Assembly (NCBI GenBank): GCA_003139095.1
Contig: PLHW01000044.1
Span: forward strand, 125,838 to 189,837
Source of the DNA: Acidobacteriaceae bacterium
Lineage (GTDB): Bacteria; Acidobacteriota; Terriglobia; Terriglobales; Acidobacteriaceae
DNA length: 64,000 nt
Direction of reading: 5' to 3'
Shown here: positions 3,253 to 64,000 of the stretch, piece by piece
Numbering within the stretch: position 1 is the first letter of the stretch
Layout of the letters: each line of letters opens with the position of its first letter
The notes under the pieces: model-generated
Databases searched by the model: none
Seen by the model: the letters and a program-made list of their open reading frames with translations, nothing else
Told to the model about the DNA's origin: nothing
Translations under genes and position numbers: made by a program

Positions 3253-4875
3253 CTAAAAGTTCTTAATCGTTGTCGACGTGCCGTCAAGTTTGGTCAGCTT
3301 TACCGCGATGTTCTCTTGGTAAGTGAAAGCCTGATCCTGTAAGAAGCTGAGAGCCACAGCTTCGCCCAGTAGAATCGAGTAATCCGTGTCGCTTCGCCAA
3401 TGGATGCCACCGTGAATGCCGTGTCCGAAGGAAATGTTGTGGGCGAGCTTGTGTAACTCGCCGTTGACCGTCATTTTGCCGGCATCCGTGCCATTGTAGG
3501 GTTCGAGCATCAGGCCGTCGGCCGATGGTTCGAGCGGGTTCACGATGGCGGCGTCACCATCGAAGAAGAATTTCAGGACGGTAATGCAAGCACCCCCGAC
3601 TGTGCCATGACCGGTTGGGTAGGCGGGGTGAGCAGGGGAACCCTCGGGGAAAGCCTGCGAGAGCAGGTAGCTGCCGTTCCGCAGATGACTCAAGTGTAGC
3701 GCCGCGGAATTCAGTACGATCGGATCCACCTGCGCATCGGTGACTCCTGCGCCGGTCTTCTTCAAATGGACTAGGCCGCCACCAGACTCGGGGCGATGGC
3801 GCAAATGCACTAGCCACTTCTGGTACCACACGGCATTGATCGCTACCCGCGCCACCGCTGCCAGTGTGGCGGCGATGTCGGGTCCTCCAAAGGTACCGAA
3901 CGGTTGCTGCTGCTTGAACCCGATATATGGGCTGGTTGGATTGGGACCGACACCCAGCGTGTTCAGCGCCAGATAAGCCACAAAATATGCCTGGTAAAGT
4001 TCGTCCTGATGCGTGAACGTGCCGAGTCCACGGCCGTTATGCATGTAGCGACGCTGCGGGTCCAATGGGATCGGAGCGGTTGTCGTAGGAGTGGAGACGC
4101 CGCTCTGGACATTTTGCCATTCCGCCAGATCCGTCATGTAGTCCATGCCGGCGGCGAAAGTCTGCATTCGCTGATCAATCGGCTGGACGCCGAGGTTGGT
4201 TGGGCGAATGCAGAATTGCGAGATGTAAGGGCCGAACTCTTCCCCAGCAAAATACTTGGCCTTGGCGCCGTTAAAGCCGCCACGAAAAAGCAGATGAGGC
4301 GTGACCTCTCCACCTTCAAGCGGCCCAGCATAATGTGCCTTGAGTTGGGTCAACTCTTTGGCCGCAGCAATGGCAGTCGAGTTCGTCTCATATTCCGTGA
4401 ACGGAACATCCCGCAATAGTGAAGCCCAATAGAGTTCCACCAATTCGGTTGCATACTCTTTGCTGCTTACCGAAGGCGGCTTTGGAACAATGGGGTCGCC
4501 AAAACCCTGAGAATCGGTGCCGCTGAGTGTGAGGGCAAAAGACCCTAAGGGACCGTTCAGTTTGCGAGTGCCGCCAAGCAGACCGGGCTTTTCAAAATCG
4601 GTGGGGTTGCCGCTGGCAAGTGCCGCCTTGAACAAGGCAAACGCGCCAGGATCCACGACTCCAAAGCTCTTCTGCATCAGGCACTTCGTAAAAGTTCCAG
4701 ACTTGTCAGCGAGCCCCTCGTCCCCATTCGTTGGGTGCGTAACGCTGCCGGTCTTGACCGCTTCCACTGTCGCGGTTCCAAAGCGAACCTCAAATGCATT
4801 CTTGCCATGTTGATCGGTCACACCGTTTGGTAAGCAGCCTGCAGCCGGTTGCGGAAGCTTTGTAAGGTCAGCCAT
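3253..4875 (-). CDS. vanadium-dependent haloperoxidase / PAP2-like protein
   Basis: HPAYPTGHGTVGGA and FGHGIHGGIHWRSD resemble the PSGH and AHxxxGxHWxxD phosphate/vanadate-binding motifs. Confidence 0.8.
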   Translation of the reverse strand: MADLTKLPQPAAGCLPNGVTDQHGKNAFEVRFGTATVEAVKTGSVTHPTNGDEGLADKSGTFTKCLMQKSFGVVDPGAFALFKAALASGNPTDFEKPGLLGGTRKLNGPLGSFALTLSGTDSQGFGDPIVPKPPSVSSKEYATELVELYWASLLRDVPFTEYETNSTAIAAAKELTQLKAHYAGPLEGGEVTPHLLFRGGFNGAKAKYFAGEEFGPYISQFCIRPTNLGVQPIDQRMQTFAAGMDYMTDLAEWQNVQSGVSTPTTTAPIPLDPQRRYMHNGRGLGTFTHQDELYQAYFVAYLALNTLGVGPNPTSPYIGFKQQQPFGTFGGPDIAATLAAVARVAINAVWYQKWLVHLRHRPESGGGLVHLKKTGAGVTDAQVDPIVLNSAALHLSHLRNGSYLLSQAFPEGSPAHPAYPTGHGTVGGACITVLKFFFDGDAAIVNPLEPSADGLMLEPYNGTDAGKMTVNGELHKLAHNISFGHGIHGGIHWRSDTDYSILLGEAVALSFLQDQAFTYQENIAVKLTKLDGTSTTIKNF

Positions 4876-17374: not shown

Positions 17375-17697
17375 GCTTAGAAGAGACTCTGATTTCGGTG
17401 TGGCGCCAGTCCTTCGTGGAAGAGGCCAAAGCCGTCAGTGTCGACGGCCGTAGTTTTCCCGTGCGAAGGACCAGCCGATCCAGATTGCGAGAAGTGAATT
17501 TTAAATTCCAAGGCCAGGAGCTACGTGGGCTCGAGCAGAATCCCAAAACCGCGTCTCGCTGGGCGAAACTTGCACGCGAGGGAAAGAAAGTCATGCAGTT
17601 CCTGGACGCGGGGCGCTACATGGCGGTCGTCGTGGATGGAAAGGTGCAGCTCTATGGCAAAGCCGCGCACGATGATCGAAAGTCAAACGAGACCTAA
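17365..17697 (+). CDS. small hypothetical protein
   Basis: 110-aa ORF overlapping the preceding ORF. Confidence 0.5.
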   Translation: MAVSLEETLISVWRQSFVEEAKAVSVDGRSFPVRRTSRSRLREVNFKFQGQELRGLEQNPKTASRWAKLAREGKKVMQFLDAGRYMAVVVDGKVQLYGKAAHDDRKSNET

Positions 17698-32465: not shown

Positions 32466-34505
32466 CTAATTGGCAGCTTTAGCCCAAAAACGCAGGTTCG
32501 CATCATTTTCGAGGGGCAGCAATTTCACCTGAGCGCCGTGTTGAATCGGATAGGCACAGGAATGACGTTGTACTTCCTCCAATACTCCGAACTTCTGCAG
32601 ACGCTTCAAAAGCCAGCGTTGCCGCCAATAGTCGGCCAGTAACTCCGTCCTGCATCTAAGTTTGGTCATCGGCAAGAGGTATTCCGGCTGAGTTGACAAA
32701 CCGATGAGAACCTCGCGGAAATTCCTGGCAAGCGCAACCCCGTATACGACTCTCTTGTTGCCATGCCTAAGTAGCTGATCCGCAGGCAAGCCGAGGACCG
32801 ATAGACCTTCCCGAATCTTTCGCATCAGCGGGTTGACCCCCTCCCCGAAAATGCTGTTCACCTTCCGGGCGTAGTTCGATCGGCTGAGCAAGATCTCTAT
32901 GAGTCGCAATGTTTCGGCGCTAAAGTGAAATGATCCGAATCCTTCGCTTACGCCGAGTTCACGATACTCGAGAACTTCATTTTGCTGCCCCCCGATGTGC
33001 TGCGCGGGGACCTTGACTCGGCTGTACTGGCTAAGACTAGAACCGTAGAGGCTGGTGGTGCAAAGCAAAGTGAGTTTTGCCTCACGTCTTACGCTCCTCC
33101 CACGCATACTTGAAGCGATCAGGCTTTCTTGCCCGCCATAGCGCCGACGGTACTCGCGAACGACTTCGGGACTGCAAAGCAGCATGCAGACAAGTTTTCC
33201 TCCCAGCAAAGTGTTGTAGGGCGCAATTGCTCCGCACACAGTAATGTCCATCATATTGATGCCCACTCGCTCCGCCTTGAGGAGACGGCACAACTGCACT
33301 ATCGCATTGCGAAAGCGGCCGACAGCCAGTGCGTCTAGGAACGCCCGGGCTGAGCCGTCACACAGCTTGAATTGGAGAAATACCTGACGAATGGTGAGAG
33401 CAGTGGAAAGAATTCGCGCTCTCTTGCTGCGAAACAGGTTCGTCTCAGCTAGCTCTTGCCAATCCACTTCATTGGCGGTAGTTGCATTTTTGTGCTTTGC
33501 AGCGTGCGGATAGAGCCGATGGCGCTTGATCGCCTTCTGCGATTCCCGCCAGAGCTTCTTGATGATCTCATCGGATGGATGGTTAAGATTTGCGCGAGTG
33601 AGAAATCCTTCACGAAGAAAATCTCTTTTGTAGACACCCTTGATAATCGAGTCGAGTTGTCTATCCAGCCAACGGATGAGTCTCCGTGACGGCTTCTCCC
33701 GGAATCTGTTCAATATGATTCCTGCGTCCCATCCGATCCACTTGTCTCGTGCCTTCTGCTGAACAACGGAACTACCCAATGCGGCGATGCCAACGACGGG
33801 GTGAAACGGTGCAGCCGCGTCCCGGACGAGAATCATCATGCTGCGACCGGGAATGCTTTTGTAGGTGTTCGACCATGTATGCCTGAAATACCGCCACACA
33901 TCGCCCAGGCGCAAGCCGGTGTGCTCGCAGATGTCGTTTGGACGAACGAACTGCAGGTAAGGGCGAATGATCCGTCCAATTCCCTCGGTCTGCAAATCAG
34001 AGTCGCTGAGGGCAACGACCCCTTCTAGTTTCTCGGCAAGCTCTCGGCCATCGCGCATGACCGAATAAATTGAATGCCAACCTTTCTTAGTGAGGCGTCT
34101 CTTTTCCATACCCTGAATAAAAGCTCGTACGGAAGCTTCATGCAGTTGAAAATCTCGCTCAATCTGATGTGCGCGCTTCAGTCTTTCCTTTTCCACCTCG
34201 GGGGACGTCGTCGGCCGAAACTCGAGTACCACTTCGGGCAACGCGGCAGCGAACGTCCAGCCCTGGGCGATCAGGTCAATCACGACGCTCAAGGCAGTCA
34301 GCAGCGATAGCTCGTCCCTCAATTGGGCCCGAGTCGGAGATGGCAGCGGACAAAGGAAACGGCGCCGCAGATCAGAGAGCAGCTGTGTCGTAATTGGCTC
34401 ACACCCGAATTCGCCAATGGCCTGATGAATCCCGGCACAGCGTCCCAGGAATGCCTCTTGCAGCACTCCCAACTTCGGTGTAAGCGTGACCTTCGTTAGC
34501 CCCAT
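32466..34505 (-). CDS. DUF4338 / DruA-like protein
   Basis: HPVVGIAALGSSVVQQKARDKWIGWD and ICGAIAPYN-type core (TVCGAIAPYNTLLGGKLVCMLLCSPEVVREY) of DUF4338 proteins. Confidence 0.75.
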   Translation of the reverse strand: MGLTKVTLTPKLGVLQEAFLGRCAGIHQAIGEFGCEPITTQLLSDLRRRFLCPLPSPTRAQLRDELSLLTALSVVIDLIAQGWTFAAALPEVVLEFRPTTSPEVEKERLKRAHQIERDFQLHEASVRAFIQGMEKRRLTKKGWHSIYSVMRDGRELAEKLEGVVALSDSDLQTEGIGRIIRPYLQFVRPNDICEHTGLRLGDVWRYFRHTWSNTYKSIPGRSMMILVRDAAAPFHPVVGIAALGSSVVQQKARDKWIGWDAGIILNRFREKPSRRLIRWLDRQLDSIIKGVYKRDFLREGFLTRANLNHPSDEIIKKLWRESQKAIKRHRLYPHAAKHKNATTANEVDWQELAETNLFRSKRARILSTALTIRQVFLQFKLCDGSARAFLDALAVGRFRNAIVQLCRLLKAERVGINMMDITVCGAIAPYNTLLGGKLVCMLLCSPEVVREYRRRYGGQESLIASSMRGRSVRREAKLTLLCTTSLYGSSLSQYSRVKVPAQHIGGQQNEVLEYRELGVSEGFGSFHFSAETLRLIEILLSRSNYARKVNSIFGEGVNPLMRKIREGLSVLGLPADQLLRHGNKRVVYGVALARNFREVLIGLSTQPEYLLPMTKLRCRTELLADYWRQRWLLKRLQKFGVLEEVQRHSCAYPIQHGAQVKLLPLENDANLRFWAKAAN

Positions 34506-56404: not shown

Positions 56405-58945
56405 CTAGTGCGCGGGCAGTCGCGGGGTCCCAATTTGGCGAAGAATTGTCGCGTCGGTGATCTTGCTATCCGCGGCCAGCAACTGCGCTTTGCTCAGAAT
56501 GATGGCCAGTGTCTGGTCGCCATCGAAAGGAAGGTAGAGTGGCCCCTTTTGCCAGGTTGCATGCCCGCGATCAGGGACAATGCACAAGTAATGGCTGCCC
56601 GGCTCCATCAAGACATTGGCGCTACCGAGGTGAATCTTGTAAGTGTGCAGATCGCCACGCACCACCAGAAATTTGCCGTCTAACGTGCATCTGGAAGCAA
56701 TCTTGAGTTGAGGCAAGAGTTTCTCTAAGATCGTGCGCCGCGTTTCGCCACTCTGGCTAAGGTCGGCAAAAGCAAAGCTTCGCCAGTACTGCTGGCCAAA
56801 TGCGTCTTCGCCGCGGTCGACCCACGTCGGATCATTCCCGATGCTGGTGACACCGACAAAAAGGTCGACATCCCGCATGATCTCTGAAAATACCACCGGT
56901 GGAATCTCGGCTAGGCGGACTGGCGCGCTGTCCCGGTAGAAGCGGACCTGGTCGGTAAAGAGATATAGATTGATACCGCTGCCGGACATCTGATCCGTTG
57001 CCTCTCGGGGGTCGGTGCCGGTGTTCACATCGGGTACATCTACCCAGAATTCCGCTTTCATCGAGCGCCGGGCCACCTCGAGAGTGGGGACGTTATGGCC
57101 GTCGAACCCCGATCCCATCAACCGATATTGCCAGCCGCGTTCGCGACAGAGGCTGGCGAATTGATGCTGCCGTATGACATGAGCGGCGAACCGGTTCGAG
57201 TACGTCTCCGTTTGCTCTTCAGCTGGCGTCAGAATATAGACTTCGCGGTGAGCCTGCTTGAAGGGCTGCACGACGTGGTGGTCCTCCAGCCAGCATCGCC
57301 AGCTAAGAATCGTTTGCGGATCGGATTGCAGCGGATGCCATAGCTGAACCCTCGTGCCCTGTCCCAAATCCGCGACTGGCTCATTGTTCCAGCCCACAAT
57401 CTCGCCGTTGAACCATATTCCCAAGGTTTTGTTTGCGCCGCTTTCGAACCTCCAGATCAGGCGCCTGGCGAGGGCACTGAGCAGAGGATGGTCGAGAAAA
57501 TGCTTGCGCCAGTGCTCGTAATTGATCTGGCGTTCGTTGATGAGGAACTGCTCGACGCGCAGTCGTTGCGCGGCTGACATTTTCTGTGCATCGGCTGCGG
57601 TGCGTTTGATCTCTTTCAGCCGGGATGCGTGGTTTTGCTTGACATCGGCGGGAGGAGATTTTAGTGGCTTGCCTGCTGCATTTTGCCAGCGAAGTTCGAT
57701 CTCTCCCGTTCCGGGCACCAACACCAGATCCACGCGACAGTCCCCGAGGTGCTCGGAACGCTGACCGTCTGCGGCCAATCCATACGTTGGAACAGCCATG
57801 TCCTCCAAGTCATCGCGGCTCAATGCGGCTCGCTCGGCCGCGCCGTTCAGCGCCTTCTCGATCAGTTTGAGGGCGACGGCGTACCTCACTTTGGCTCGCA
57901 TCCGGGTGAGTTGTGCTACCGACTCCATTCCTGGCATTTCAGCCAGAGTATTGACACAGGCGAATCCAACGCGCGCGGAAACGGGTCCGATGTTAGGAAT
58001 CTTGCGCAGACATGTCAGTCCCATATCCGCAATCGCCCCGCACAGTCCTCCATCGGAGGTGCCCGCTAGCAGCCAGACAAAACCTTTGAGATAGTCAGCG
58101 TCTTTGTCAGAGATCTGCGCAGCTGGCTTAACAGTTAAAGGCGCGATCTCTCCGTTCAGCCAACGAATGGCAGAGTCTCGGACCTTGGTGGCGCCAACAG
58201 CGACAATCAGTTCTTCCGATCGTTTGCGCCACGCCTTCGAAGGAGTGGATGACTGTGCTCCAAGACAATGAACAAACATCTCCGCCCAGCTACTTCGATC
58301 CGGCTCGGAATGTTTCTCGATTTCGGCAAAGACAAACGAACTCCAGGGACCACCGGCCAAGAGTTGATTTTCTTTCCCGGGCTGGAGGTAAAGGTCAATC
58401 CTTTCCAGGAGTTTCCGATTTTCCCTGGAATTGGACCGGCGCGACAACTGGACGAGGGAATCCTTCAACCCGCGCATCGCCCCTTCAATCTCGCCTGTCC
58501 TTGGGCCTGACTCAACCGCACTGATCAGAGACGCTAAAGGGAAGCAGTAATGGATAACCTGGAGATATCGGGTGAAGGAACGAACCATATCAGACAAGTC
58601 CGCAGGCTGAAGCGGGAGCTTACGGCGCAGAATATTTGAAACCACGCTGCCCAACGCTCTGAATTCCAGCCAGTTGAAACGCTGGCCCACTGGAGTAGAA
58701 CCGAACAAGCTGGAAAACAGTTTGCCTACAATAGTCGTTTCGACGTTGGCAGGTGCGGGCGCAAGAGCACCCGCGCTAGCAAGAACCGTTCGGAGAAAAG
58801 CTATTTGGATTTCGGGAGGTTCCGCCTGAAGATCGTTAACAATCGCCAGCTTGCGGGTCTGTAGGATCGCCCACTGTTTTTCGCGGCACTCCTGCTGGAG
58901 CCTTTCTAGATAACCGGAGATGACCGCTTGGACTTGCGGCGTCAT
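56405..58945 (-). CDS. DUF4132-like protein
   Basis: C-terminal module INLYLFTDQVRFYRD...VFSEIMRDVDLFVGVTSIGNDPTW...IASRCTLDGKFLVVRGDLHTYKIHLGSANVLM. Confidence 0.7.
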   Translation of the reverse strand: MTPQVQAVISGYLERLQQECREKQWAILQTRKLAIVNDLQAEPPEIQIAFLRTVLASAGALAPAPANVETTIVGKLFSSLFGSTPVGQRFNWLEFRALGSVVSNILRRKLPLQPADLSDMVRSFTRYLQVIHYCFPLASLISAVESGPRTGEIEGAMRGLKDSLVQLSRRSNSRENRKLLERIDLYLQPGKENQLLAGGPWSSFVFAEIEKHSEPDRSSWAEMFVHCLGAQSSTPSKAWRKRSEELIVAVGATKVRDSAIRWLNGEIAPLTVKPAAQISDKDADYLKGFVWLLAGTSDGGLCGAIADMGLTCLRKIPNIGPVSARVGFACVNTLAEMPGMESVAQLTRMRAKVRYAVALKLIEKALNGAAERAALSRDDLEDMAVPTYGLAADGQRSEHLGDCRVDLVLVPGTGEIELRWQNAAGKPLKSPPADVKQNHASRLKEIKRTAADAQKMSAAQRLRVEQFLINERQINYEHWRKHFLDHPLLSALARRLIWRFESGANKTLGIWFNGEIVGWNNEPVADLGQGTRVQLWHPLQSDPQTILSWRCWLEDHHVVQPFKQAHREVYILTPAEEQTETYSNRFAAHVIRQHQFASLCRERGWQYRLMGSGFDGHNVPTLEVARRSMKAEFWVDVPDVNTGTDPREATDQMSGSGINLYLFTDQVRFYRDSAPVRLAEIPPVVFSEIMRDVDLFVGVTSIGNDPTWVDRGEDAFGQQYWRSFAFADLSQSGETRRTILEKLLPQLKIASRCTLDGKFLVVRGDLHTYKIHLGSANVLMEPGSHYLCIVPDRGHATWQKGPLYLPFDGDQTLAIILSKAQLLAADSKITDATILRQIGTPRLPAH

Positions 58946-59469: not shown

Positions 59470-59498
59470 CGTTACACCACGTAAAAAGCGTGCTATAC
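59470..59498 (+). promoter_or_regulatory. candidate sigma-70 promoter upstream of tRNA block 1
   Basis: GTTACA - 17 bp - TATACT. Confidence 0.5.
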
Positions 59499-59615
59499 TG
59501 AGCTTCGAAAATGACGATACAGACCAAATCCATTATGAGACGGCGCGTCAATCGCGCTCGGCCCTCGGGATTGGTCTGATCATTCGCTAGATTTCCAAGT
59601 TCAGATTCGATTTCC

Positions 59616-59650
59616 GAAGGCCCCGACAAAATCGGGGCCTTCGTGTTTTT
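59616..59650 (+). terminator. intrinsic terminator/attenuator abutting the first tRNA
   Basis: 11-bp perfect stem GAAGGCCCCGA-caaaa-TCGGGGCCTTC followed by GTGTTTTT. Confidence 0.75.
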
Positions 59651-59726
59651 GGCCGGTAGCCAAGCTGGAAAGGCACGTGACTGTTACTCACGCCATGCGC
59701 AGGTTCGAATCCTGCCCGGCCAGCCA
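59650..59726 (+). tRNA. tRNA-Asn(GTT)
   Basis: Acceptor TGGCCGG/CCGGCCA, loop CTGTTAC, T-loop TTCGAAT, encoded CCA. Confidence 0.85.
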
Positions 59727-59744
59727 GATTCCGAGGGTAGTAAC

Positions 59745-59820
59745 GGCTCGCTAGTTCAGTAGGAAGAACGCGGCTCTCATAAAGCCGTCGTGGATGGTTC
59801 GAATCCATCGCGAGCCACCA
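59745..59820 (+). tRNA. tRNA-Met(CAT) (elongator or Ile2; not resolved)
   Basis: Acceptor GGCTCGC/GCGAGCC, loop CTCATAA, CCA. Confidence 0.85.
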
Positions 59821-59822
59821 GT

Positions 59823-59913
59823 GGAGGGGCCTCCGGCGAGGGGCAGTGGCTTATACCCACTTCGGCGCCAGATTAGCGCGGCCAGACAGGTTCGACACCT
59901 GTACCCTCTACCA
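59823..59913 (+). tRNA. class II-like tRNA, anticodon TAT
   Basis: Stem AGTGG/CCACT, loop CTTATAC, about 24-nt variable region, T-arm ACAGG-TTCGACA-CCTGT, CCA; one acceptor mismatch. Confidence 0.65.
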
Positions 59914-59920
59914 ATTTGTC

Positions 59921-59996
59921 GCGCCGGTAGTTCAACGGACCAGAACAGTTGGCCTACACCCAACAGATGCGGGTTCAACTCCCGAACGGCGCACCA
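59921..59996 (+). tRNA. tRNA-Val(TAC)-like, C33
   Basis: GTTGG-CCTACAC-CCAAC; T-loop TTCAACT; CCA; mismatch at acceptor position 7. Confidence 0.75.
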
Positions 59997-59997
59997 G

Positions 59998-60071
59998 GCA
60001 GGATTAGCTCGAAGGTCGAGCCCGCGGTCGATAACCGCGAGGCGTTGGTTCGATTCCAACATCCTGCACCA
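59998..60071 (+). tRNA. tRNA-Ile(GAT), C33
   Basis: Acceptor GCAGGAT/ATCCTGC; CGCGG-TCGATAA-CCGCG; CCA. Confidence 0.8.
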
Positions 60072-60089
60072 AAGCTTGTGGTGAGTAAC

Positions 60090-60166
60090 GGGTGACTGGC
60101 AGAGATGGCTGATGCACTCGCCTCTTAAGCGAGACCAGGCTGGTTCGATTCCAGCGTCACCCACCA
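60090..60166 (+). tRNA. tRNA-Lys(CTT)
   Basis: Acceptor GGGTGAC/GTCACCC; loop CTCTTAA; CCA. Confidence 0.88.
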
Positions 60167-60172
60167 GATTTT

Positions 60173-60248
60173 GCGGGATTGGCAGATAGGGATATGCACT
60201 CGCCTTTTAAGCGAGACGAAGTGGGTTCGATTCCCACATCCCGCACCA
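60173..60248 (+). tRNA. tRNA-Lys(TTT)
   Basis: Acceptor GCGGGAT/ATCCCGC; loop CTTTTAA; CCA. Confidence 0.88.
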
Positions 60249-60265
60249 GAGTTATTTAGCAAAGA

Positions 60266-60342
60266 GGCGGCATAGCATAACGGAACAATGCTCCGAGCTT
60301 CTACCTCGGACGATGAGAGTTCAAATCTCTCTGCCGCCTCCA
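60266..60342 (+). tRNA. tRNA-Arg(TCT)
   Basis: Acceptor GGCGGCA/TGCCGCC; loop CTTCTAC; CCA. Confidence 0.88.
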
Positions 60343-60346
60343 ATGT

Positions 60347-60422
60347 GGGGATGTGGTCCAACGGATGAGGGCGCAAGGCTACGAACCTTGAGATCAGAGT
60401 TCAATTCTCTGCATCCCCTCCA
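60347..60422 (+). tRNA. tRNA-Arg(ACG)
   Basis: Acceptor GGGGATG/CATCCCC; loop CTACGAA; CCA. Confidence 0.88.
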
Positions 60423-60432
60423 CATTAGTTAG

Positions 60433-60508
60433 GCTCGCGTGGTCTAAGGCATGATGACGCTTCGGTCCTAACGAAGAGATCCGGGTTGGATTCCCGGCGC
60501 GAGTTCCA
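60433..60508 (+). tRNA. tRNA-Arg(CCT)
   Basis: Acceptor GCTCGCG/CGCGAGT; loop GTCCTAA; T-loop TTGGATT; CCA. Confidence 0.8.
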
Positions 60509-60510
60509 GA

Positions 60511-60586
60511 GGGTGGGTAGTGTAATCGAACAACACGGCAGCGTCCGAAGCTGCAAATCCGGGTTTGACTCCCGGCCCGCCCTCCA
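60511..60586 (+). tRNA. tRNA-Arg(CCG)
   Basis: Acceptor GGGTGGG/CCCGCCC; loop GTCCGAA; T-loop TTTGACT; CCA. Confidence 0.8.
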
Positions 60587-60633
60587 GTCACTTTTAGTAT
60601 GGATGTTTGCACTCAGACAAACTGGATACTGCA

Positions 60634-61479
60634 ATGATGCGAGCAACAAGACGACTCAGCAAAACGAAACGGTTTCTTCTGGACCATCCTTACTGTTGTT
60701 TCTGCGGTGGCGCCGAGCTAGCTACAACGATTGACCACGTTCCACCAAAGGCATGTTTTCCTGAAGGGCACTCTCCAGAAGAATTCGAGTTTCCGGCCTG
60801 CGAACAATGCAACGGTGAGTCGAGGAGAGATGACCAGCTTTTCGGTTTCTACGCGCAACTGCTGGATTTCAACGAATCGAATCGAACACCTGCGGATGTT
60901 GCGAAGATTACGAAGTTGCGAGATTCGATCTCACACAATTTTCCAGATGCATTGCCTGATGCCTCAACAGCACGACCGGTCTATAACGTCGGCTCAGTCA
61001 TCACGCCAAGTCCACTTGCAATCGAGGTGCGTACCCCTAGCTTATTTCGCGAGCCGATTGAAACTTTGGAAAGAAAACTCACGCACGCCTTGTACTACCG
61101 AGAAACAGGGAGGGCTTTAAGCAAGACCCACTCGTTCCTCAGTGAGTTCTACCAACCTCAAGGCAGCTCCGACGTTCTCACAAAATATCTGGTAGGCCTG
61201 CTTCCAGACAAGACGATTGGCGGTCGATCAAATGTGAAGAATTATGGCGAGAGGTTTGGTTATAGATCCGGCTGGAAGGAGGTAGAGGATTTCTTTATGT
61301 ATATAGCTCAATTCGGCAAAGGGTTGATCGTTTGGGGAATCGTTCTAGGGCCCAACACGAAGATCAGTGAATCGGCCAATTATCTGCGGGCGAGACCTTG
61401 GCGAAAGGCAGGGTGTCGCGAAAAGGTACCGGAGACATGGGGCGAGGACTTCGTTGATTCGCCAAACACTACAGACTAA
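60634..61479 (+). CDS. HNH endonuclease-like protein inserted between tRNA blocks
   Basis: HPYCCFCGGAELATTIDHVPPKACFPEGHSPEEFEFPACEQCNGESRRDD; the ORF runs from 60607 and an internal ATG at 60634 is a plausible start. Confidence 0.75.
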   Translation: MMRATRRLSKTKRFLLDHPYCCFCGGAELATTIDHVPPKACFPEGHSPEEFEFPACEQCNGESRRDDQLFGFYAQLLDFNESNRTPADVAKITKLRDSISHNFPDALPDASTARPVYNVGSVITPSPLAIEVRTPSLFREPIETLERKLTHALYYRETGRALSKTHSFLSEFYQPQGSSDVLTKYLVGLLPDKTIGGRSNVKNYGERFGYRSGWKEVEDFFMYIAQFGKGLIVWGIVLGPNTKISESANYLRARPWRKAGCREKVPETWGEDFVDSPNTTD

Positions 61480-61682
61480 GACGCTCCTATGGAGCCGCAG
61501 TAACAGTCACTTTTGGGTATTGACGAATTTCTGAAATCATGTGAGAGTAAAAACTGAGATACACGCAATGATGCGCAAACCCCATACCGATTGCTTCCCG
61601 ACACCGGCCACGTTTACGTGGCAAGGAGCGGGGGAAGGTACGTTCATGTAACGGGGGCGATCCATAGCGCGTAGTTTTTCTG

Positions 61683-61716
61683 AGCCTCCGATACAAATCG
61701 GGGGCTTTTGGTTTTT
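61683..61716 (+). terminator. intrinsic terminator between the HNH gene and tRNA block 2
   Basis: GCCTCCGAT-acaa-ATCGGGGGC stem (one G-U) followed by TTTTGGTTTTT. Confidence 0.7.
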
Positions 61717-61746
61717 ATGGCGCATTTCATCGATGCGCAGAGAGGA

Positions 61747-61821
61747 GGCAGCGTCGTCTAACGGCCAGGATGCGGCTCTTTCAAGGCTGAGATGGGAGTT
61801 CGACTCTCCTCGGTGCTACCA
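61747..61821 (+). tRNA. tRNA-Glu(TTC)
   Basis: Loop CTTTCAA; T-arm GGGAG-TTCGACT-CTCCT; one acceptor mismatch; CCA. Confidence 0.8.
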
Positions 61822-61826
61822 AAGTT

Positions 61827-62018
61827 ATGAGTACCCAAACAGTTGAACTCGAAGGCTTTGAGATCGAGCTTGCATCGGAGCTTTACTGCGATCGCGGCGG
61901 GGATCATCGCGAATTGGTGGATCGTGCGCGTACGGATCGCAGGAGGCTCGGCCACAACGTAGATGAGTCAGCGGTTTTGTGTGTCCGGTGCATGAAAGCA
62001 ATTCCGCTGAAGGTGTGA
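61827..62018 (+). CDS. small putative Cys-containing protein inside the tRNA array, 63 aa
   Basis: Fills the gap between the Glu and Gln tRNAs exactly; C...CVRC pattern; ends 1 nt before the next tRNA. Confidence 0.4.
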   Translation: MSTQTVELEGFEIELASELYCDRGGDHRELVDRARTDRRRLGHNVDESAVLCVRCMKAIPLKV

Positions 62019-62092
62019 TGCCGGGTCGTCTAGCGGCAGGACTCTGGACTTTGAATCCGGATACGGGCGTTCGAATCGCTCCCCGGCAGCCA
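62019..62092 (+). tRNA. tRNA-Gln(TTG)
   Basis: Acceptor TGCCGGG/CCCGGCA; loop CTTTGAA; CCA. Confidence 0.88.
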
Positions 62093-62144
62093 GTTTGAAA
62101 AGTCAGCGAAAGGAGGAAGTTCACTGCAGGGAATATCGAGGAGT

Positions 62145-62220
62145 TGCGAGGTCATCCAATTGGCTAGGATAACCGGCTCTGACCCGGTTCATGCACGTTC
62201 GACTCGTGCCCTCGCAGCCA
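62145..62220 (+). tRNA. tRNA-Gln(CTG)
   Basis: Acceptor TGCGAGG/CCTCGCA; loop CTCTGAC; CCA. Confidence 0.88.
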
Positions 62221-62232
62221 GGTTTAGAACGC

Positions 62233-62306
62233 GGTCGCAGAGTCTAGCGGCAGGATACCTGACTGTCTATCAGGAGGGACGGGTTCAACTCCCGTTGCGA
62301 CCGCCA
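62233..62306 (+). tRNA. tRNA-Asp(GTC), U37
   Basis: Acceptor GGTCGCA/TGCGACC; loop CTGTCTA; CCA. Confidence 0.85.
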
Positions 62307-62307
62307 C

Positions 62308-62384
62308 AGGGGTGATGACCCGACGGGAAGGGCGCTCGTCTCCAAAACGAGTTCAAGCAGGTTCGAATCCTGTCACCCCTGCCA
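62308..62384 (+). tRNA. tRNA-Trp(CCA)
   Basis: Acceptor AGGGGTG/CACCCCT; loop CTCCAAA; CCA. Confidence 0.88.
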
Positions 62385-62393
62385 GTTTGAAGA

Positions 62394-62468
62394 GCGAGCA
62401 TGGTATAGCGGCTGGTGCCTCGGGCCTCCAACCCGATGACGCGAGTTCAACTCTCGCTGCTCGCTCCA
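62394..62468 (+). tRNA. tRNA-Gly(TCC), C33
   Basis: Acceptor GCGAGCA/TGCTCGC; TCGGG-CCTCCAA-CCCGA; CCA. Confidence 0.82.
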
Positions 62469-62481
62469 TGATTTTGTGAGG

Positions 62482-62557
62482 GCGGAAGTCGTCTAGTGGC
62501 CAAGACGCGACGTTGCCAACGTCGAGAGCGCGGGTTCGAGTCCCGCCTTCCGCTCCA
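62482..62557 (+). tRNA. tRNA-Gly(GCC)
   Basis: Acceptor GCGGAAG/CTTCCGC; loop TTGCCAA; CCA. Confidence 0.88.
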
Positions 62558-62565
62558 AGTTATGA

Positions 62566-62641
62566 GGCGGTGTAGCCAAGACAGCAAGGCGTCTCCCTGC
62601 AAAGGAGATCATCGGGAGTGCAATTCTCCCCACCGCCTCCA
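62566..62641 (+). tRNA. tRNA-Cys(GCA)
   Basis: Acceptor GGCGGTG/CACCGCC; loop CTGCAAA; unusual T-loop TGCAATT; CCA. Confidence 0.82.
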
Positions 62642-62652
62642 GAGTTTTGTTT

Positions 62653-62726
62653 GCTGGTGTAGCTCAGTGGGAAGAGCTCGGGCCTCGTAAGTCCGTGATC
62701 GGCGTTCGAATCGCCGCGCCAGCTCC
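62653..62726 (+). tRNA. tRNA-Thr(CGT), lacks a complete encoded CCA
   Basis: Acceptor GCTGGTG/CGCCAGC; loop CTCGTAA; 3' end reads T-CC and runs into the next tRNA. Confidence 0.85.
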
Positions 62727-62801
62727 GCTGGTATAGCTCAACGGGAAGAGCAGGTGCACGGTAAGCGCCCGACCGCAGTTCGAGGCTGCGTGCCAGCTCC
62801 A
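62727..62801 (+). tRNA. tRNA-Thr(GGT), C33
   Basis: Acceptor GCTGGTA/TGCCAGC; GGTGC-ACGGTAA-GCGCC; CCA. Confidence 0.8.
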
Positions 62802-62808
62802 AAGTTTT

Positions 62809-62882
62809 GCTGGTCTAGCACAGTGGGAGTGCAGAGAGCTTGTACCTCTCCGACGAGTGTTCGATTCACTCGACCAGCTCCA
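62809..62882 (+). tRNA. tRNA-Thr(TGT)
   Basis: Acceptor GCTGGTC/GACCAGC; loop CTTGTAC; CCA. Confidence 0.88.
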
Positions 62883-62891
62883 AGTTTCGAT

Positions 62892-62967
62892 GGCGGGATT
62901 GGCCGAATGGCTTAGGCGCTGGATTGTGGCTCCAGTCACGAGAGTTCGATTCTCTCATCTCGCCCCA
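62892..62967 (+). tRNA. tRNA-His(GTG)
   Basis: Loop TTGTGGC; encoded G-1 opposite C73, the His identity element; CCA. Confidence 0.88.
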
Positions 62968-62970
62968 ATT

Positions 62971-63044
62971 GGGCGGTTCGTATAACGGGATTACTCACGG
63001 CCTGCAACCGTGAAATGCGAGTTCAATTCTCGCACCGTCCACCA
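62971..63044 (+). tRNA. tRNA-Ala(TGC)-like, C33
   Basis: Acceptor GGGCGGT/ACCGTCC; CACGG-CCTGCAA-CCGTG; CCA; identity by anticodon only. Confidence 0.75.
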
Positions 63045-63050
63045 AAGTTT

Positions 63051-63124
63051 GGCTCGGGAACTCGACGGCAGAGTGCTGGTCTGAAAAGCCAGTGGATACG
63101 GTTCAATTCCGTGCCGAGCCACCA
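63051..63124 (+). tRNA. tRNA-Phe(GAA)
   Basis: Acceptor GGCTCGG/CCGAGCC; loop CTGAAAA; CCA. Confidence 0.88.
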
Positions 63125-63202
63125 AGTATGGGAGTGCTCCAGCTGGTCGAGGCGCGTGTCTTGGCAGCTTTCCCGGCCAAGGTAATTTACGAGGAGATGA
63201 TC

Positions 63203-63742
63203 ATGACGAACGAACTGATCTCGATGAGCCATGTTGAAGACCGACTCACCGCGCAAGATGATCCCGGAGCCTGGAAGGAAATTCTCGCCGTGCTGGGTGA
63301 AGAATTCTTACAGCGATATCGCGCCGAGCAAGGCGAGAAGGAATCATGGTTCCTGCGGATTGGGGCATGTTCGCATTGGGTGCGGCCGCACCAAAGCCGC
63401 TGGCTTGCGGCAGGCGAGTTTGCCTTGCCCATCGGATACAAGGGTGCAGCTGGCTGGTCGAACGGACTGCCCGAATTTGATTGGTCGGTAATTCTCTCGT
63501 TCGACGGTGAACGTTGGAAGCGAGTCGATAGATTCTCCGGCAAGAAACAAATCGTGTTGCGCGTTGCTGTCCCGACGCGCACTGCGCGACATAAGCAGGC
63601 GGCGATCCACACAATGTGGTCCACGTCTCACCAAATGACGCTCTATGGCTTTCGGTGCATCGATCAGAAGTGGCTCTGTGTCGCGGCATCTGATGAGCGC
63701 AAGCATGGACGAATTCTTTACGCAGAAGCGACTGCAGGATAG
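63203..63742 (+). CDS. uncharacterised protein between the tRNA array and rtcB, about 179 aa
   Basis: ORF open from 63092; likely start MTNELISMSHVEDRL with upstream GAGGAGATG; 19 nt before the rtcB start. Confidence 0.65.
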   Translation: MTNELISMSHVEDRLTAQDDPGAWKEILAVLGEEFLQRYRAEQGEKESWFLRIGACSHWVRPHQSRWLAAGEFALPIGYKGAAGWSNGLPEFDWSVILSFDGERWKRVDRFSGKKQIVLRVAVPTRTARHKQAAIHTMWSTSHQMTLYGFRCIDQKWLCVAASDERKHGRILYAEATAG

Positions 63743-63761: not shown

Positions 63762-64000
63762 ATGACAGAGACAACTTACAACGTGATGATGCCGGACAAG
63801 GGCGTGCCTATCAAGGCCTGGACCAAGGGTGTGCAGCTCGAGGATGCCGCACGCCAGCAACTCTTGAATGTCGCGCAATTGCCGTTCATCTACAAGTGGG
63901 TGGCGGCCATGCCGGACGTGCATTGGGGCATCGGTGCGACCGTGGGCAGCGTGATTCCGACGCGTGGCGCAATCATCCCGGCGGCGGTTGGTGTGGACAT
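63762..64000 (+). CDS. rtcB: RNA-splicing ligase RtcB (5' part, truncated by window end)
   Basis: MTETTYNVMMPDKGVPIKAWTKGVQLEDAARQQLLNVAQLPFIYKWVAAMPDVHWGIGATVGSVIPTRGAIIPAAVGVD, the RtcB signature. Confidence 0.92.
   Translation, partial: MTETTYNVMMPDKGVPIKAWTKGVQLEDAARQQLLNVAQLPFIYKWVAAMPDVHWGIGATVGSVIPTRGAIIPAAVGVD

Follow-up and report, generated by a model that had tools for sequence, protein, structure and literature searches.

What a bacterium gains from a dense array of spare tRNAs, several of them with altered anticodon loops, is the question raised by a 64,000-nucleotide stretch of DNA from an Acidobacteriaceae bacterium (assembly GCA_003139095.1, contig PLHW01000044.1, positions 125,838 to 189,837; hereafter the window, whose numbering is used unless another locus is named). 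The original prediction, made from the sequence of the window, pointed to five array tRNAs with C in place of U at position 33 (C33) and one with U at position 37 (U37), and set them in a phage context. What is new here is that each of three tRNA blocks follows a conserved leader open reading frame (ORF) composed largely of the block's own amino acids, two of the blocks also being preceded by a terminator. These leader peptides and terminators, which the prediction had missed, are the more striking part of the locus. We consider it probable that the locus is an attenuator-controlled island that senses tRNA depletion and supplies replacement tRNAs together with RNA repair, its altered loops, less surely, resisting anticodon nucleases.

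The anatomy and conservation of the island can be read directly from the DNA. In the window ARAGORN recognized 24 tRNAs at 59650-63044, and an Rfam search added a 25th, tRNA-Phe(GAA) with T33 (63051..63124, + strand, 53.9 bits). These 25 tRNAs occupy 3.5 kb of the window, and the island holds about 32, the high density characteristic of tRNA array units. Block 1 (59650..60586, + strand) contains Asn, Met, Ile(UAU), Val, Ile(GAU), two Lys and four Arg tRNAs; block 2 (61747..63124, + strand) contains Glu, two Gln, Asp, Trp, two Gly, Cys, three Thr, His, Ala and Phe. The set first listed for the window was correct, and the array proved to be larger. Block 2 continues outside the window with Pro-UGG and a second Met-CAU, located after rtcB, and block 3 (Leu-CAA, Ser-GCU, Ser-UGA, Tyr and Leu-UAG) lies about 10 kb further on, on the opposite strand. 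Together the island tRNAs cover all 20 amino acids. Every array tRNA but one (Thr-CGU, in ARAGORN's call) ends in an encoded CCA, and T loops are of the normal type in most. The array also shows a swap of tRNA class, in that tRNA-Ile(UAU) (59820-59913) has a long variable arm and 94 nucleotides, and the tRNA-Leu genes are short, with 77-78 nucleotides (L010:3239-3315 and 3621-3698).

The genes that accompany the array encode enzymes of RNA repair. The RNA ligase gene rtcB starts at 63765 (63765..64000 in the window, + strand, continuing beyond its end to about 64991) and matches the full RtcB model (Pfam PF01139, model positions 1-426, 439 bits). It is the sole rtcB of the genome, and the approximately 32 array tRNAs lie around it. 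Past rtcB come Pro-UGG, the second Met-CAU, an HNH_5 gene, Hen1 (TIGR04074, 743 bits) and Pnkp (TIGR04075, 1469 bits), the last two being adjacent genes outside the window. Taken together, the spare tRNAs, two kinds of enzyme acting on cleaved RNA and leaders that appear to read tRNAs suggest a single purpose, namely survival of tRNA depletion, most likely by anticodon nucleases.

An RtcB search showed that four further contigs (L089, L090, L091 and L109), all from metagenome-assembled genomes of Acidobacteriota, likewise join this array to RtcB, giving five genomes in all; the other arrays discussed below are a planctomycete array (L157) and three further arrays (L197, L198 and L200). The order in L091 is array, RtcB, Hen1, Pnkp, phosphoesterase, array, and Hen1-Pnkp after array and RtcB is therefore common to at least two members, the island of the window and L091. 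The array tRNAs of the window are 98%, 98%, 93% and 89% identical to those of the four relatives, at an RtcB synonymous divergence (dS) of 0.49-0.75 and with the spacers between tRNAs largely replaced. By these comparisons the array is under strong purifying selection, with the odd loops among what is kept.

Each block is preceded by a short ORF whose composition matches the tRNAs that follow. Block 1 has a promoter at 59471..59499 (+ strand) that matches the consensus (GTTACA, a 17-nucleotide spacer and TATACT, with TG before the -10 element), and the promoter sequence, GTGCTATACT, is identical in L090 and L109. Leader peptide 1 (59511..59579, + strand), MTIQTKSIMRRRVNRARPSGLV, has 22 codons before its stop, is conserved as an ORF in L090 and L109 and contains all six block 1 isotypes (N, M, I, V, K, R); its start lies approximately at the expected transcription start, so it is possibly leaderless. 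A conserved intrinsic terminator with a 12-bp stem (9 GC) and a T tail follows at 59615..59650 (+ strand), ending at the first tRNA of the block. Leader peptide 2 (61568..61651, + strand), MMRKPHTDCFPTPATFTWQGAGEGTFM, has 27 codons before its stop, is identical in L090 and carries an in-frame 6-nucleotide deletion in L109. It contains all 11 block 2 isotypes (Glu, Gln, Asp, Trp, Gly, Cys, Thr, His, Ala and Phe, together with Pro, whose tRNA lies after rtcB) and is followed by a conserved intrinsic terminator (61682..61717, + strand), the 5' arm of which is free to pair upstream as long as the 3' arm has yet to be transcribed. Leader peptide 3 (L010:3723-3785, - strand), VKRLLQLRSSLRLSPSRLSY, is an ORF of 20 codons that precedes the Leu/Ser/Ser/Tyr/Leu block.

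After the start codon, residues of the own block made up 12/21, 22/26 and 12/19 of leaders 1, 2 and 3, with each block isotype present, and leader 2 had no block 3 residue. In a null set of some 16,000 in-frame windows drawn from genes nearby, the fraction that matched leaders 1, 2 and 3 in this respect was 6e-4, 0/16210 and 1.2e-4, respectively. The agreement extends to codons: a cognate codon occurs in the own leader for 8/11, 14/15 and 5/5 tRNAs (27/31), compared with 18/62 off-block. Examples are ATA for Ile-UAU, AGA for Arg-UCU, ACC, ACA and ACG for the three Thr tRNAs, and AGT with TCN for the two Ser tRNAs. The orthologues retain the frame and their indels are in-frame. L109 has no tRNA-Trp and no Trp codon in leader 2, and its leader 1 differs from that of the window by T to M, Q to R, T to I and A to V, all four changes being towards block 1 residues. 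From this match we infer that the leaders sense tRNA supply.

Attenuators of amino-acid operons (trp, his, thr) consist of a promoter, a short ORF rich in regulatory codons and a terminator before the first gene. Block 1 of the island has the same three parts in the same place, and all three leaders are conserved short ORFs rich in what would be regulatory codons, upstream of the genes concerned. Unlike the trp, his and thr attenuators, the island leaders precede tRNA genes rather than biosynthesis genes, and each covers many tRNAs where those attenuators cover one or two amino acids. Leader-peptide attenuation of a tRNA operon by several tRNAs was not found in the literature searched, which left out most subscription papers.

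The leader RNAs were also folded, including by a co-transcriptional calculation in which the 3' arm of the terminator is not yet made. For leader 2, in three orthologues, the 5' arm of the terminator paired upstream with a probability of 0.77-0.88 for stalls from the start to the Glu-Gly codons, whereas for stalls on the stop or the three codons before it the value was 0.34-0.66. The arm probably pairs with a CGGGGGC located at the stop codon of the leader, a repeat of the terminator 3' arm. An attenuator that ends transcription only after the full list has been read would be expected to give such a calculated profile.

These features suggest how the island would work. Its three operons would form an inducible, near-complete spare tRNA set with RtcB within it and Hen1-Pnkp downstream. 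When the cell's tRNAs are intact, each leader would be translated to its end and the terminator would form. When an anticodon nuclease, or another stress, depletes any one of the listed tRNAs, the ribosome would stall in the leader, the antiterminator would form, and the spare tRNAs and repair enzymes would be made. The altered loops, with U33C in Val, Ile, Gly, Ala and Ser (in this genome also in Thr) and U37 in Asp, might then block cutting of the spares by the same nucleases, at a decoding cost that would be tolerable mainly in four-codon-box tRNAs and in Ile. In its fullest form the three leader peptides would be a joint checklist of the 20 amino acids, one list per operon, such that loss of almost any tRNA induces a cleavage-resistant replacement, RtcB and Pnkp/Hen1; we regard this form as evenly poised between right and wrong.

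Several observations weigh against this account. This set of isotypes matches no known nuclease, and a search of the genome confined to the PrrC and RloC families of anticodon nucleases gave one sub-threshold PrrC-family match and none above the cut-off. By strict wobble, the codons for Gln-CUG, Lys-CUU, Arg-CCU and Val-UAC are absent from the leaders, and leader 2 of L109 lacks Glu though tRNA-Glu is present. Block 3 has no U-tract terminator before its first tRNA. Equilibrium folding leaves the terminators intact at most ribosome stall positions; it is mainly the co-transcriptional calculation that yields the antiterminator, clearly for leader 2 only and weakly for leader 1. No such leaders were recognized in other array lineages, so they are seen in one array lineage only, and leader 2 has no further copy in plasmids or in 151 genomes of the class. 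Because equilibrium folding gives no switch, leader 1 is weak and block 3 lacks a clear terminator, we offer the switch itself as a prediction. The terminators that stay formed in simple folding, and the other array lineages without leaders, would fit with leader ORFs that arose by chance or have another role, such as stabilizing the transcript, in arrays that are mere codon supply for a mobile element. We think this unlikely, since three leaders match three blocks by residue and by codon, their frame is conserved, the Trp codon is missing where tRNA-Trp is missing, and repair enzymes are present.

The anticodon loops were re-examined from the ARAGORN calls, all six tRNAs being on the + strand. 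C33 was found, as first described, in tRNA-Val(UAC) (59921..59996, loop CCTACAC), tRNA-Ile(GAU) (59998..60071, TCGATAA), tRNA-Gly(UCC) (62394..62468, CCTCCAA), tRNA-Thr(GGU) (62727..62801, ACGGTAA) and tRNA-Ala(UGC) (62971..63044, CCTGCAA). The other 20 of the 25 window tRNAs, tRNA-Phe from Rfam included, have T33, and tRNA-Asp(GUC) (62233..62306, loop CTGTCTA) has U37, both again as described. A sixth C33 tRNA, Ser-UGA with loop CCTGAAA, lies just beyond the window in block 3. The comparison with host isoacceptors that had been called for showed U33 and A37 in the genome's own Val-UAC, Gly-UCC, Thr-GGU, Ser-UGA and Asp tRNAs; the draft genome yielded no housekeeping copy of Ile-GAU or Ala-UGC, but relatives have a U33 Ile-GAU. 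A second, shorter tRNA-Asp(GUC) outside the array (L037:318-389), with the loop CTGTCAT by eye, differs from the housekeeping copy. C33 was present in 21/118 tRNAs of five bacterial arrays, two of which are related, versus none of 71 distinct non-array tRNAs, all 71 of which have U33, a difference greater than chance would give (Fisher p 5e-5).

The odd loops are kept within the array lineage. Ala C33 occurs in all five members (and in L197, L198 and L157), Val C33 and Ile C33 in 3/3 of the members that reach that far, with the Val loop identical in L090 and L109, and Gly-UCC C33 in 3/4, being kept in L090 and L109, with T33 in L091. Ser-UGA has C33 in both copies where that tRNA was recognized. 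Asp U37 is found in 4/4 members with tRNA-Asp seen (L090, L109 and L091 besides the window), even though the L091 tRNA-Asp differs at 16/74 positions; Thr C33 is private to this genome, with ATGGTAA in four orthologues. That the odd-loop tRNAs are decayed or misassembled, as their unusual loops might suggest, is hardly credible. The stems are paired, including the anticodon stems of the window's C33 tRNAs, which score 43-57 bits in Rfam; CCA is encoded, and the same loops are found in other assemblies and in phages, which already refutes the idea save for Thr-GGU, whose C33 comes from a single assembly. No relaxed constraint of the kind expected of degenerate pseudogenes was seen. Since the tRNAs are 89-98% identical despite an RtcB dS of 0.5-0.75, the C33 and U37 tRNAs are not decaying genes, in line with the original prediction.

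The same changes recur well outside this lineage. An Ile-GAU C33 pattern had matches in 3/149 Acidobacteriota genomes, all three inside tRNA arrays, versus 38 places in 33 genomes for the matching T33 pattern; no true match was obtained in 249 genomes of the phylum around G397, both hits being false. L197 and L198, which are mutually related (tRNA-Ile 91% alike), have C33 not only in Ile-GAU but also in Val-UAC (CCTACAA) and Ala-UGC (CCTGCAA). L200 has C33 in Leu-GAG, Gly-GCC, Val-CAC, Val-GAC and Leu-CAA, and the planctomycete array L157 combines Ala C33 with Asp U37. Four phages, XacN1, JSF10, P59 and AS4, carry Ile-GAU with C33 in the loop CCGATAA, and the tRNA-Asp loop of P59 is CTGTCTA, as in the window; phages T5 and Yaboi have T33. 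The C33 Ile tRNAs from outside the array's own lineage are 53-74% identical to that of the window. Across ten arrays C33 clusters in the same anticodons (permutation p 5e-5), and this holds without L198. Divergent RtcBs lie inside the L157, L200 and L197 arrays as well (65%, 51% and 47% identity), so that array and RtcB seem to have come together on more than one occasion. Residues other than A recur at position 37 of tRNA-Asp, with U37 in three lineages and G37 in a fourth (loci including L091, L157, P59, L197 and L198). The array of Streptomyces phage Yaboi (L188), in which all tRNAs have T33, is accompanied by a Ro-like RNA-binding protein and a Band-7 protein.

Because the C33 and U37 tRNAs sit with RtcB, Hen1 and Pnkp, menders of cleaved RNA, cleavage resistance is our leading reading of the odd loops. 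We infer more weakly than for the leaders that these loops make the spare tRNAs poor substrates of anticodon nucleases, and this is the weakest step of the proposal. Nothing points to the decoy tRNAs that had also been suggested. C33 is commoner in four-codon boxes (12/84) and in Ile (6/11) than in two-codon boxes, all other tRNAs together giving 3/129 (p 0.0015 for four-box tRNAs against these others, Ile excluded). Such a distribution would also be expected if C33 were tolerated and not selected, rarely used array tRNAs losing U33 where this is cheapest, in four-codon boxes and Ile, which would rely less on U33 for decoding or modification; tRNAs that need U33 for wobble modification, such as queuosine in Asn, Asp, His and Tyr, would keep it. 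This explanation is a serious one that we nevertheless find doubtful, because the C33 tRNAs are strongly conserved despite the divergence of RtcB, phages and bacteria that are unrelated show the same U to C change in tRNAs with the same anticodons, and there is no other sign of decay. Enrichment in four-codon boxes could also mean that C33 tunes decoding, a weaker U-turn either widening the codon range within a box or lowering use of the spare tRNA until it is needed. We judge this improbable, as Ile-GAU, Thr-GGU, Val-GAC, Val-CAC and Leu-GAG need no extended wobble and some boxes already have several anticodons in the array.

C33 could also be converted to U33 at the RNA level, as raised at the outset. 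Such editing by a cytidine deaminase has a precedent in C8 of archaeal tRNA, and this genome has a RibD/TadA-like cytidine deaminase gene near Pnkp, about 6 kb downstream of rtcB (L009:13644-14660). The gene is RibD-like in look and absent from the other examined loci with the same C33 tRNAs, and editing is very unlikely. Cleavage resistance remains the reading that we prefer.

The surroundings of the island are bacterial. A phage origin of the window was rejected, as the contig belongs to a 5.5-Mb draft bacterial genome with bacterial neighbouring genes, and the island is chromosomal. Against phages and plasmids, array DNA gave single-tRNA matches only; no array was found within 20 kb of rtcB in the megaplasmids pBASL58, pMPPla107 and pALVIN01, and ARAGORN found no tRNA in the first 50 kb of the Anabaena delta plasmid. 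Pnkp was rejected as an array marker: at the eleven further Acidobacteriota Pnkp loci retrieved, of which one was a partial match, no array lay nearby. Between blocks 1 and 2 lies a 290-amino acid ORF with weak HNH similarity (60607..61479, + strand; weak PADLOC matches to PtuB and PDC-M01B), and between tRNA-Phe and rtcB an uncharacterized ORF of no family, listed at 216 amino acids with its true start probably further in (63092..63742, + strand). Neither ORF is conserved among the arrays, nor are the HNH_5, deaminase and Xth genes of this island. An integrase-like ORF (L010:16059-17375) beside tRNA-Pro(CGG) (17430-17506), on the far side, suggests without proving that the island is integrated. 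A Pepco-domain protein, a 411-amino acid protein that is trypsin-like by eye and a VWA protein stand in a row at L009:15538-18648 and have the look of a conflict system. Upstream of the array, a DUF4132/DUF7737 protein is encoded on the opposite strand (56405-58945), and DruA of a Druantia-type defence system lies at 32466-34505 (PADLOC DruA, E 2e-176), with two HATPase genes and large helicase-like genes nearby.

Parts of this design are known from other systems. Phage tRNAs have been proposed to evade anticodon nucleases through loop mutations (van den Berg et al. 2023, PMC10264068), in a text with no mention of U33 or position 33. Like those phage tRNAs, the island is an extra cluster whose loops differ from host isoacceptors (from the genome's own tRNAs for Val, Gly, Thr, Ser and Asp, and from those of relatives for Ile) and whose stems are intact; unlike them, it is chromosomal and comes with repair enzymes and leaders that would sense tRNAs. 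Dense clusters also form the tRNA array units of Mycobacterium, Acidithiobacillus and plasmids, that of M. avium having been described as a putative antidefense system (PMC5966550, PMC12803027), but the island differs from these in its conserved C33 and U37 loops, embedded RtcB and block-specific leader peptides. In Anabaena, the trn operon of the TrcR regulon is a 26-gene spare tRNA operon that is silent until translational stress, with rtcB co-regulated (PMC10272220). It shares with the island the link between a spare tRNA set and rtcB; there a protein repressor controls both, whereas here leader ORFs and terminators lie in the operon and rtcB lies within the array. Jumbo phage XacN1 has tRNAs for all 20 amino acids and Pnkp/Hen1 on one genome (PMC5852040), as well as the C33 Ile-GAU, but it is a phage, no RtcB is mentioned in that report, and its repair genes lie apart from the tRNAs.

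What accessory tRNA arrays do has long been asked, and this locus makes the question directly testable. The leaders would name the tRNAs that are watched, the loops name those that may be attacked, and the repair genes name the kind of damage. Position 33 gains a possible role in escape from anticodon nucleases, and the same change recurs in phages of Xanthomonas, Vibrio, Bacillus and Aeromonas.

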